Shown: one piece after another, positions 3,317-6,461 of the stretch
Numbering within the stretch: the stretch's first letter is position 1
Layout of the letters: every line of letters begins with the position of its first letter
Assembly: GCA_021325515.1 (NCBI GenBank)
Contig: JAJPHC010000046.1
Location: 1 to 35,821 of the forward strand
DNA from: Acidobacteriota bacterium
Lineage (GTDB): Bacteria > Acidobacteriota > Thermoanaerobaculia > Gp7-AA8
Length of the DNA stretch: 35,821 nucleotides
Reading direction: 5' to 3'
Translations under genes and position numbers: made by a program
Notes under the pieces: model-generated
The model's input: only the letters and a program-made list of their open reading frames with translations
What the model was told of the DNA's origin: nothing
Database searches by the model: none

Positions 3317-3982
3317 TCACTGGCTCCAGGTCTTCGACAGGCGGTGCTTCGGCACTTCCGGCACTGGGCGGTCGTAGTGCGAGGTGTCGTTGAAGAGCGT
3401 GAGGCGCGCGTGTGCTGCGTCCTTGAAGTCGAGGATGTTGAGCGCTGCGGGACTCTGATCGAGGCGGTCGCGATACTTCCTCGGATCGAATCCGAGGATC
3501 GAGCTGAGCAGCAGGCGGATCGTTGCCTTGTGCGAGACGACGAGGATCGCGCTGTCCTTGTGCCGTTCGACGAGATCGAGTAGCGCAGGAAGGGCGCGAG
3601 CCGTCACCGCGAGGCCGCTCTCGCCGCCGACGGGAGAGAATGTGTACGGATCCTCTTCGTACCGCGCATATTCGATGGGGAATTGTCGTTCGACTTCCGC
3701 GCGAGTCCTTCCTTCCCAACGGCCGTGATTGATTTCGCGGAGGCCGTCGACGGGAGTGATCGGGAGCGCGTGCGACTCGCTTGCGATCTCGGCCGTCGTG
3801 ATCGTGCGCCGCATCGGCGATGCGTACACTGCCGAGAGAGATTCACCTGCGAGACGGATTCCGAGAAGCCGAGCCTGTTCGCGGCCTGCTTCGGAAAGGA
3901 GCACGTCGGTCGCGCCGGCAAAGCGGTCTTCCGCGGTGAGCTCCGTGGCGCCGTGGCGGACGAGGAACATTCGCGTCGTCAT
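3317..3982 (-). CDS. Histidine phosphatase family protein (phosphoglycerate-mutase-like)
   Basis: A 221-residue cytoplasmic phosphatase of the histidine phosphatase superfamily (GpmB/CobC/PhoE branch). The RHG motif places the phospho-accepting H10 with R9. R58 (YASPMRRT), E83 (LREINHGRWEG) and the second catalytic H151 (VVSHKATIR) complete the pocket. Substrates of this branch range from phosphoglycerate and sugar phosphates to alpha-ribazole phosphate, and sequence alone does not decide. The ATG is preceded by TAAACT with a 6-nt gap and no Shine-Dalgarno, so the message may be leaderless. It converges with the Ig-like gene, with only 10 nt between the stops. Confidence 0.93.
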   Translation of the reverse strand: MTTRMFLVRHGATELTAEDRFAGATDVLLSEAGREQARLLGIRLAGESLSAVYASPMRRTITTAEIASESHALPITPVDGLREINHGRWEGRTRAEVERQFPIEYARYEEDPYTFSPVGGESGLAVTARALPALLDLVERHKDSAILVVSHKATIRLLLSSILGFDPRKYRDRLDQSPAALNILDFKDAAHARLTLFNDTSHYDRPVPEVPKHRLSKTWSQ

Positions 3983-3988
3983 GCGACG

Positions 3989-3994
3989 AGTTTA
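3989..3994 (-). promoter_or_regulatory. -10 box TAAACT for the histidine phosphatase
   Basis: On the minus strand TAAACT lies 6 nt upstream of the phosphatase ATG, which would put the transcription start at or next to the A of ATG. It sits just beyond the proposed small-RNA terminator, consistent with a fresh transcription unit. Confidence 0.5.
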
Positions 3995-4004
3995 CCGCCT
4001 TAAG

Positions 4005-4242
4005 GTAAAAAGGAAGAGGCCCGCGGTCTCTGGTTCCGCGGACCCTTTCTCGGTTCGTTGACAGCTACCAGAGAGCATCCGAACCGACTTGTGCGCCTCG
4101 CGAATCCCTTTGCTTTCCGAGGCTGTATGCGATCCGTTGGCAGCTGCAAAGGAGCATTCGGATCACCGCTCCGGCGTTCCACGCTACCCCGAAGCATCCC
4201 GCAGTTCGTTGACATCGGCGCGGCGCATCCGAACTGAAGGTG
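4005..4242 (-). ncRNA. Candidate structured small RNA with repeated hairpins
   Basis: The 328-bp gap between ppa and the phosphatase contains no convincing ORF but holds repeated hairpins on the minus strand. Three share one plan, at 4236-4202, 4164-4131 and 4086-4051: a 6-7 bp stem (CAGTTCG/CGAACTG, GATCCG/CGGATC, CGGTTCG/CGAACCG) around a 21-22 nt loop that starts RATGC and ends TGYCAA. A fourth degenerate copy lies at about 4202-4170. A different hairpin, GCCTCG/CGAGGC, lies at 4123-4095. The stems differ in sequence yet still pair, while the loop ends are conserved, which is the mark of selected RNA structure. A promoter lies just upstream (4249-4277) and an intrinsic terminator at the end. 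I recognise no Rfam family. A CsrA-type sponge is conceivable because GGATG recurs, but this is speculation. Confidence 0.6.
4007..4044 (-). terminator. Intrinsic terminator, minus strand
   Basis: On the minus strand GGTCCGCGG pairs with CCGCGGGCC (9 bp, one U-G wobble) around a 9-nt loop, followed by the U-rich TCTTCCTTTTT. On the plus strand the wobble becomes an A-C mismatch, so the element is built for minus-strand transcripts: the candidate small RNA, or ppa read-through. Confidence 0.65.
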
Positions 4243-4248
4243 AGGAGC

Positions 4249-4277
4249 AATATGGTGCCGCGGTTGGAGTTTGCCAA
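4249..4277 (-). promoter_or_regulatory. Sigma70-like promoter for the candidate small RNA
   Basis: On the minus strand TTGGCA (4277-4272) and CATATT (4254-4249) are separated by exactly 17 bp, predicting a start near 4242, immediately before the first hairpin. It lies inside the gap after ppa and has no downstream start codon with a usable ORF. Confidence 0.5.
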
Positions 4278-4310
4278 GAGGGTGGCGAAGAAAAAAATGG
4301 GCGCTGGGAG

Positions 4311-4853
4311 TCAGCTCAATCTCAACGCATCCCGGTTCTTCGAATACAGATCGATGGCTTCCTGGATCACCCGCAGGGCGTCGTCGCGATCGAGGAAGTG
4401 CTCCACTTCGACGATCTTGTTCTCGAGCACTTTGTAATCCTGAAAGAAGCGGCTCACTTCGGTCATCCGGTGTGGCGCGAGCTCGGTGATCGAGTTGTAA
4501 TGGACGTACTCCGGATCGTTGGCGTGGACGGCGATGATCTTGTCGTCCGCCTCTCCCTGATCGCGCATCTTCATCACGCCGATGGGCTTGGCGAGCATGA
4601 CCGAGAGCGGCACGACGGGCTCCTGCCCGAGGACGAGCACGTCGAGCGGATCGTGATCTTCGCAGTAGGTTTGAGGGATGAAGCCGTAGTTTGCCGGATA
4701 CTGGACGGAGCTGAAGAGAACGCGGTCGACGCGAATGAGGCCGCTCTTCTTGTCGAGCTCGTACTTCGTCTTCGACCCCTTCGGGACTTCGATGACGACG
4801 GGAACGAGATGCGGCGCGTCAGTACCGAGAGCGACGTCGTGCCATGGATGCAT
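4311..4853 (-). CDS. ppa: Inorganic pyrophosphatase, family I
   Basis: A 180-residue cytoplasmic enzyme that hydrolyses pyrophosphate to two phosphates and so pulls biosynthetic reactions forward. The family I signature is present as [12 protein letters not shown], with metal-binding D66, D68 and D71, and the second acidic pair D98/D103 ([10 protein letters not shown]). Other conserved active-site stretches are [13 protein letters not shown] and YPANYGFIP. The length is normal. Its ATG sits 6 nt after TACACT with no Shine-Dalgarno, so it may be leaderless. Just after the stop, a weak GCTG/CAGC hairpin with a T-run (minus strand, about 4315-4290) could act as a weak terminator. Confidence 0.97.
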
Positions 4854-4859
4854 GCCGAC

Positions 4860-4865
4860 AGTGTA
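4860..4865 (-). promoter_or_regulatory. -10 box TACACT for ppa
   Basis: TACACT on the minus strand lies exactly 6 nt before the ppa ATG. It overlaps the end of a palindromic repeat, so the repeat insertion contributes part of the promoter region. No -35 resembling TTGACA is visible. Confidence 0.5.
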
Positions 4866-4946
4866 GGACAGGCGCCCTCGCCTGTCCCATCAGGCGCCCC
4901 CGCCTGTCCCGAATGACACCCGACAGGCGAGGGCGCCTGTCGTACA
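4862..4946. repeat. Palindromic repeat cluster (ACAGGCG family)
   Basis: A 25-bp sequence at 4862-4886 is repeated in inverse orientation at 4922-4946 with one mismatch. Each arm is itself a hairpin, GACAGGCG/CGCCTGTC around a 4-nt loop. A third shorter copy (CAGGCG/CGCCTG) lies between them near 4891-4907. This resembles REP/BIME-like mosaics. It occupies the divergent gap between ppa and the S1 gene. Confidence 0.9.
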
Positions 4947-5069: not shown

Positions 5070-6461
5070 ATGACGCAAACGAGAGACAACGCTGAGGCAA
5101 ACAGCTTTGCCGAGGCGTTCGAGGCGAGCCTGAATTTCAAGACTCCGGAGCAGGGTGACCTGCTGAAAGGCCAGATCGTATCGATCTCCGGCGACGACGC
5201 GTTCGTCTCGTACGGTGGCCCTTCAGAGGCCGTAATGGCCGCAGCGGAGCTCGATGGGCTCGACATCGGTGACACGGTCGAAGGGACTGTGGTCAAGACT
5301 TCGCCCGAGATCCGCATCTCGCGCAAGATGATCAAAGGCAAGGCATCGCTCGATGCTCTTCGCCAGATGTACGAGAACCATCTTCCCGTCGAAGGGAAAA
5401 TCACCGGCCGGAACAAAGGCGGCTTCGACGTCAGCGTCAGCGGCCTCCGCGCCTTCTGCCCGCTTTCTCAGATTGCCCTCGGCAAGATCGAGAACCCGGA
5501 TGCCTTCCTCAACCAGACGTACGACTTCCGCGTCACCGAGATGTCGGATGACGGCCGCCGCATCGTCGTCTCGCGCGCAGCACTTCTGAAAGAAGCTGCC
5601 GCGCATCGCGCCGAAGAGACGCGCAAGGCCGTCGTGCCCGGCGCCGAGCTCACCGGCCGCGTGAAGACCATCACCCCGTTCGGCGCCTTCGTCGATCTCG
5701 GCGGTGTCGATGGACTGCTGCACGTGTCGGAGATGTCGCGCCGCCGCGTGACCGATCCGAAAGAAGTCGTGCAGGTCGGACAGGAAGTTCATGTCAAAGT
5801 CATCAAGGTCGACAACGACGGCAAGCGCATCTCGCTGTCGATGAAAGATCAGGAGCCGGATCCCTGGGGTGATGTCGCCGATCGTTATCCGGTTGGCGCG
5901 CAGTTCACAGGCCGCATCGTCCGCTCGACCGACTTCGGATACTTCATCGAAGTCGAGCCGGGTCTCGACGGTCTCGTCCATCTCTCGCAGCTTCCGTTCG
6001 GCGTGAAGCCGGGCGATGAGTCGGTGCAGATCGGCTCGACCGTCACCGGCTGGGTCCGCGAAGTGGATCCGTCGCGCAAGCGCCTCTCGCTTTCGCTCCG
6101 CGAAGTTGCGGTGAGCGATCCGTGGGAAGCCGCCGGCCAGAAGTACGGAATCGGCAAAGTCGTCGAAGGTACGGTCGATCACACCGGCGCGCCGGGCGTG
6201 TTCGTACAGCTCGAGCCGGGACTGACGGGTCTCATCCCGAACTCCGAGCTCGCCGGTGCCGAGCATCCGGAAGGCGAGCGCCTCATGGTGCGCATCATGT
6301 CGATCGACGTGACGCGCAAGCGCATTTCGCTGAGCCACGAGGCCGCGAAGGCCGCCGCGGAGCGCGAGGAGTACAGCAAGTTCATGGAAGAGCGCGGCGA
6401 AGCGGAAGGAAAGAGCGCGATGGCGCTCGCCTTCGAGCGCGCGATGAGCAAGCGGAACTAG
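5070..6461 (+). CDS. S1 RNA-binding domain protein (30S ribosomal protein S1-like)
   Basis: A 463-residue protein with five S1-type OB folds in a row: a degenerate first domain (about 28-90), then about 103-172, 190-260, 275-347 and 362-428. The third has the classic ITPFGAFVDLGGVDGLLHVSEMS signature and domains end in typical KRISLS motifs. The C-terminal tail (about 430-463) is charged and helical. This is the architecture of ribosomal protein S1 or a close paralogue, which unfolds mRNA and helps it dock on the ribosome. If leaderless messages are common here, S1 dependence would be interesting. The unit stands alone, with its own promoter and a strong terminator. I cannot tell whether it is the genome's only S1. 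Confidence 0.9.
   Translation: MTQTRDNAEANSFAEAFEASLNFKTPEQGDLLKGQIVSISGDDAFVSYGGPSEAVMAAAELDGLDIGDTVEGTVVKTSPEIRISRKMIKGKASLDALRQMYENHLPVEGKITGRNKGGFDVSVSGLRAFCPLSQIALGKIENPDAFLNQTYDFRVTEMSDDGRRIVVSRAALLKEAAAHRAEETRKAVVPGAELTGRVKTITPFGAFVDLGGVDGLLHVSEMSRRRVTDPKEVVQVGQEVHVKVIKVDNDGKRISLSMKDQEPDPWGDVADRYPVGAQFTGRIVRSTDFGYFIEVEPGLDGLVHLSQLPFGVKPGDESVQIGSTVTGWVREVDPSRKRLSLSLREVAVSDPWEAAGQKYGIGKVVEGTVDHTGAPGVFVQLEPGLTGLIPNSELAGAEHPEGERLMVRIMSIDVTRKRISLSHEAAKAAAEREEYSKFMEERGEAEGKSAMALAFERAMSKRN

Follow-up and report, generated by a model that had tools for sequence, protein, structure and literature searches.

A probable stand-alone RNA of repeated kissing-hairpin modules in Thermoanaerobaculia

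An unannotated locus in a Thermoanaerobaculia genome almost certainly holds a real, structured, stand-alone RNA made of kissing-hairpin modules, judging from its conservation in related genomes. The locus lies in a 35,821-nt stretch of DNA, here called the window, from an Acidobacteriota bacterium (Gp7-AA8, class Thermoanaerobaculia; contig JAJPHC010000046.1, assembly GCA_021325515.1), between the genes for inorganic pyrophosphatase (ppa) and a histidine phosphatase (Pfam). The predicted RNA covers positions 4007 to 4242 of the minus strand, is about 236 nt long and comprises three modules, with its 5′ end placed by the promoter and its 3′ end by the terminator tail. Its gene architecture, covarying loop-loop helices, strand, variable module number and paralogs are established here. 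From these features we infer a protein partner and its titration: the RNA may be a multivalent titrator of a protein bound at a conserved internal loop of each module, a reading to which we give a probability of roughly 0.4.

Results

Promoter and terminator of the window locus

An earlier note, made from the letters of the window, had proposed that an unannotated small RNA of about 235 nt lies here, complete with promoter and terminator; conservation of both elements among homologs supports that proposal. The promoter it named is present on the minus strand, where the -35 element TTGGCA (4272-4277) and the -10 element CATATT (4249-4254) are separated by a 17-nt spacer. A promoter scan returned 2 promoter-like sites versus 0.2 expected, and alignment of upstream regions marks the same elements, with homologs reading TTGACG/TTGCGC at -35 and mostly YAGATT at -10. 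The promoter is of the sigma-70 type. All loci linked to an S1-domain gene (S1-linked loci, see below) keep it a few bases ahead of the first stem with a YAGATT-like -10, and the TTG of the -35 is invariant in 14/14 of them. Transcription of the window RNA probably starts near 4242. At the other end, a GC-rich hairpin with a 9-bp stem (4044-4018) precedes the U-rich tail TCTTCCTTTTT (4017-4007), also as the earlier note had it. An automatic terminator scan gave no match at 4044-4018 because the hairpin loop is 9 nt; the intrinsic terminator is conserved among homologs, which keep the tail as well. Together, the conserved promoter, the conserved terminator and varying neighbours are evidence for an independent gene. 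A protein-coding origin was considered and rejected, as many module periods are not divisible by three and the open reading frames are not conserved.

The free energy of the window RNA is unremarkable relative to shuffled sequences (z = -1.0), and folding it on its own yields pairings between modules that homologs do not conserve. Since the single sequence folds no better than its shuffles, the case for structure rests on homologs.

Modules of paired hairpins

Three hairpins with differing stems and RATGC...TGYCAA loops had been described on the minus strand, and they are present at 4236-4202, 4166-4129 and 4087-4050. The idea of one repeated structural module holds for the repetition, however, the repeated unit comprises two hairpins, held together by a loop-loop helix, and is not a lone hairpin. 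What had been called a degenerate copy and an unrelated hairpin are, by loop complementarity, the partners of the first two motif hairpins. Each module thus consists of a motif hairpin, A, with an 8-bp stem, followed by a second hairpin, B, and loops A and B pair over 6-7 bp. A module measures about 75 nt, with periods of 71-82 nt.

In module 1, hairpin A (4202-4236, minus strand, as for all features here) has the stem CAGTTCG / CGAACTG, and its loop segment CCGCGC (4223-4218) pairs with GCGTGG (4184-4179) in the loop of hairpin B (4168-4195). This helix of 6 bp, one of them G-U, is the weakest of the window's three. Module 2 has a hairpin A at 4129-4166 with the stem GTGATCCG / CGGATCGC and a hairpin B at 4095-4123, joined over 7 bp by the loop segments CCTTTGC (4152-4146) and GCAAAGG (4113-4107). 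In module 3, hairpin A (4050-4087) has the stem TCGGTTCG / CGAACCGA, and its loop segment CTCTGGT (4073-4067) forms 7 bp with ACCAGAG (4034-4028) in hairpin B (4018-4044). That hairpin is the 9-bp terminator stem itself, so the last hairpin B doubles as the transcription terminator.

Covariation and strand

Our survey covers 74 modules in 23 loci, and the module alignments were built from sequence alone. For the 23 terminal modules, pairing extends to 96.6% of cells, and both sides have changed in 16/24 pairs; for the loop-loop helix the figures are 98.8% and 6/7 pairs, and sliding the partners by 1-3 columns as a control reduced pairing to only 29-47%. The claim that the stems covary is thereby borne out, with pairing kept through double changes in homologous loci. 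An alignment of 35 of the 51 internal modules, omitting mostly the first modules of S1-linked loci as well as near-duplicate rows, has 95.1% of the loop-loop helix paired and 5/7 pairs doubly changed. In the first modules of S1-linked loci, this helix is often shorter or carries a mismatch. For module 3, the loop pairs found across loci include CTTTGGT/ACCAAAG, CCTTTGT/ACAAAGG, CCCTTGT/ACAAGGG and TCTTAGT/ACTAAGA, in which both sides change together. The loop-loop helix is thus maintained by compensatory change as its sequence drifts, which argues that shape counts here and not sequence.

Repetition and inverted repeats could also come from chance or from a repeat acting at the DNA level, whether REP/BIME-like or as a single-stranded DNA structure, and in one relative (G009) the array reaches two contig ends, one carrying four modules and the other three. 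We consider this origin very improbable. Across the A stems and loop-loop helices there are 71 G-U pairs versus 8 A-C mismatches on the RNA strand, a bias unexpected for DNA or for the opposite strand that indicates selection as RNA on the minus strand. The promoter and terminator are conserved, and a covariance-model search found no further copies in the window's own genome.

The loops also bear on whether the RNA acts on other transcripts. Its promoter and terminator give it the stand-alone layout usual for small RNAs, and Hfq-like proteins may exist in these genomes, so loops A or B could serve as seeds for mRNAs, with the loop-loop helix as an openable lock. Changes in a loop are matched by its partner inside the RNA, however, which predicts an intramolecular partner and not a fixed mRNA target, and we think a trans-acting, base-pairing role rather unlikely.

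Loops in S1-linked loci match their own partner at 6.67 of 7 positions versus 3.90 for the loops of other modules, whereas internal modules of loci unlinked to the S1 gene share nearly one loop code (ATCGC/GCGAT), with cross-matching at 5.63 of 7 versus 6.4 for their own partner. This shared code favours self-assembly in trans, where loop A of one molecule or module would pair with loop B of another to form dimers or larger particles; GOLLD, ROOL and OLE, which form RNA-only oligomers via kissing loops, are precedents (PMC12286853). By that analogy assembly may occur, although we regard it as unlikely given the module-specific codes of the S1-linked RNAs, including the window's, and the adjacency of A and B within a module, which favours pairing in cis.

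Conserved nucleotides of loop A

Over the 74 modules, loop A is 21-23 nt long and follows the pattern RAYGCY-[7 nt]-RGMUGUYAA. Strong conservation is confined to the two flanks of this pattern, RAYGCY (5′) and RGMUGUYAA (3′), which separate stem A from the loop-loop helix. An A is invariant at three positions (74/74), and the G at the second 3′ position and the U at the fourth are each present in 73/74. In 67/74 modules the two nucleotides that follow RAY, G and C, are able to pair with the U/C and G preceding YAA, and such pairing leaves a 3x3 internal loop with RAY opposite YAA. We take this internal loop to resemble the UAA/GAN motif, as a lead only.

The repeated GGATG had raised the idea of a sponge for CsrA, after the manner of CsrB, and the repeated hairpins and a GGA in 45/74 modules (G at the first loop position, R) fit it. 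The idea fails on two counts, and, barring a CsrA analogue too divergent to be recognised, we give it next to no credence: in 29/74 modules the first position is A, so that GAA replaces GGA, and CsrA (PF02599) was found in 0/18 family genomes by a search that was positive in the E. coli, B. subtilis and T. maritima controls.

The same nucleotides are conserved from module to module, which is what a repeated binding site would show. Conserved sequence beside a helix kept for its shape, once per module, is how a repeated protein-binding site should be built, and several such sites on a stand-alone RNA make titration of its protein the simplest role. We hypothesize that the loop-loop helix, which locks hairpins A and B of each module together, would fix the conserved nucleotides in an internal-loop geometry, that this loop would bind one copy of a putative protein per module, and that the number of modules would set the capacity for titration. 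Several points count against the titrator reading. The conserved internal loop is just as compatible with packing between RNAs or with a small ligand. In the window and in several S1-linked homologs, module 1 has a weaker loop-loop helix, and two family genomes are without the RNA. In addition, the distribution of Hfq-like proteins, which gave matches in 11/18 genomes, sub-threshold except for one over the cut-off, does not follow that of the RNA. One protein of about 150 aa in the window's genome (G000:C41:64402-64557), common to many relatives, matches the Hfq domain at 26.2 bits, under the cut-off of 27, and is a possible divergent Hfq.

Distribution and copy number

A blastn search over 40 relatives found the region in 10/17 of the family's other genomes, with 73-76% identity in the longer matches. 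The earlier note had suggested a covariance-model search of related genomes, which was positive in 15/17 of these, i.e. in 16/18 family genomes. The two without the RNA are G003 and G012, and the RNA is therefore not essential throughout the family. A sister family of the same order also had one positive genome, and the covariance models matched nothing in the rest of 149 class genomes. A phylum sample of 396 genomes gave one further match, in another class (G179, L047), which was taken as chance since it is without the motif. Run over 84,980 species, the motif pattern hit only Acidobacteriota metagenome-assembled genomes, several of them named Thermoanaerobaculia, and one Bacteroidales contig, about the chance level; it matched nothing in the viral contigs scanned. 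As far as searched, the RNA family is limited to two families of one Thermoanaerobaculia order, and its carriers are uncultured soil bacteria.

The number of modules per RNA ranges from 2 to 6, with three in 17 loci, two in 2, four in 2, and five and six in one locus each. Second loci that are unlinked to the S1 gene occur in six genomes (G005, G006, G007, G009, G011 and G016).

Gene neighbourhood

In most loci a short S1-domain gene lies divergently upstream of the RNA. In the window this gene (5070-6461) encodes a short S1 paralog of 463 aa whose best model, PRK13806, scores below its cut-off, and the relatives checked carry a second S1-like gene besides the short paralog. Between ppa and the S1-domain gene the window also has a REP-like repeat (4865-4945) in which ACAGGCG(CCC/AGGG)CGCCTGTC occurs in both direct and inverted orientation. 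In another genome (G008, L121, about 1030-1400), tandem GATCCCATCGATGATGGGATGAATCCC-like palindromic units lie upstream of the S1-domain gene, the RNA's usual place, with no RNA copy there.

Given that the B hairpin of the last module is the terminator hairpin, the RNA could be a tandem aptamer or riboswitch that controls the downstream histidine phosphatase through a terminator whose loop belongs to the last aptamer. Most S1-linked loci do have the phosphatase downstream in the same orientation; in L005, L007 and L030, however, it is not downstream, and no downstream gene is constant. Around the S1-unlinked loci the neighbours differ, and the downstream genes are unrelated or none is co-directional. 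One genome (G016) retains the phosphatase-S1 locus with the RNA absent there. Control of the phosphatase is therefore an improbable role, and we keep to titration of a protein as the preferred reading.

Promoters of the S1-unlinked loci have TGTGGAAAA upstream and mostly also AATGTAACA. The reverse of TGTGGAAAA, TTTTCCACA, fits a DnaA-box-like consensus, and replication- or DnaA-linked control of these copies is possible. In the promoters of L013 (2300-2400) and of the same region in L032, L034, L036, L037, L110 and L046, all S1-unlinked copies, the common sequence upstream of the -35 is TGTGGAAAAC, DnaA-box-like in reverse, and most also have AATGTAACA there.

Discussion

We lean, at slightly better than even odds, towards a new bacterial RNA class: kissing-hairpin modules arranged as beads on a string, each with one identical conserved site, in which duplication and loss of modules change the valency over evolution and the last module serves as its own terminator. 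Such an RNA would be a programmable-valency protein titrator or an RNA assembly scaffold. The family adds an unusual and well-supported architecture, tandem modules each closed by a covarying loop-loop helix with the terminator as the final half-module, and a multi-copy structured RNA gene in a lineage without CsrA. Modules of this size are small enough for structure determination and synthetic work, and the variable module number provides natural variants to test whether valency matters. A modular scaffold that works by valency or assembly would, if true, be categorically new.

The earlier note matched the RNA to no known family, and this agrees with Rfam 15, whose covariance models matched no family in the window at gathering score. 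Lenient E-values added only sub-gathering chance matches (Thr_leader, BjrC68, HgcF, DUF3800-II and microRNA families), which fall mostly on terminator-like or flanking repeat hairpins. The literature searched for the architecture or the taxon held no description of the module RNA. Like 6S RNA, it is stand-alone, structured and of similar length, however, identity with 6S RNA was rejected because the genome's RF00013 match lies on another contig (G000:C40, 77.8 bits). A link to Ro and Y RNAs was also rejected; the window's genome has no TROVE, which occurs in only 2/18 genomes, one of them without the RNA.

With CsrB/RsmZ it shares a stand-alone gene, repeated modules, a variable copy number and a terminator, but the Thermoanaerobaculia genomes studied here are without CsrA and GGA is not conserved. 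CsrB-type hairpins are not known to occur in pairs locked by covarying loop-loop helices. Conserved kissing loops in a bacterial noncoding RNA recall OLE, ROOL and GOLLD, which are large single-copy architectures with intermolecular contacts, whereas the module RNA is small and repetitive and its loops are matched within the module. Two neighbouring hairpins with a loop-loop interaction are also found in the guanidine-II riboswitch (PMC9094411), from which the modules differ in having a 6-7 bp helix of freely covarying sequence and in not being tied to one downstream gene.

A close parallel in layout is the STAXI motif, an RNA with a pseudoknotted unit repeated 2-3 or more times, frequently with UUCG tetraloops and located near genes of DNA-handling proteins (Weinberg et al. 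2010, PMC2864571). Both have repeated pseudoknotted units (here 2-6, each with a loop-loop pseudoknot), which is resemblance and not membership: the STAXI model was not among the matches listed at E<=10 in window positions 3900-4400 or at E<=5 in the six-module locus. Unlike STAXI, the unit here consists of two hairpins whose loops pair, within a gene that has its own promoter and terminator, in Thermoanaerobaculia. The sequence family is absent from Rfam 15 and from the literature searched, while repeated pseudoknotted units, as in STAXI, and titrating repeat RNAs, as in CsrB, were already known.
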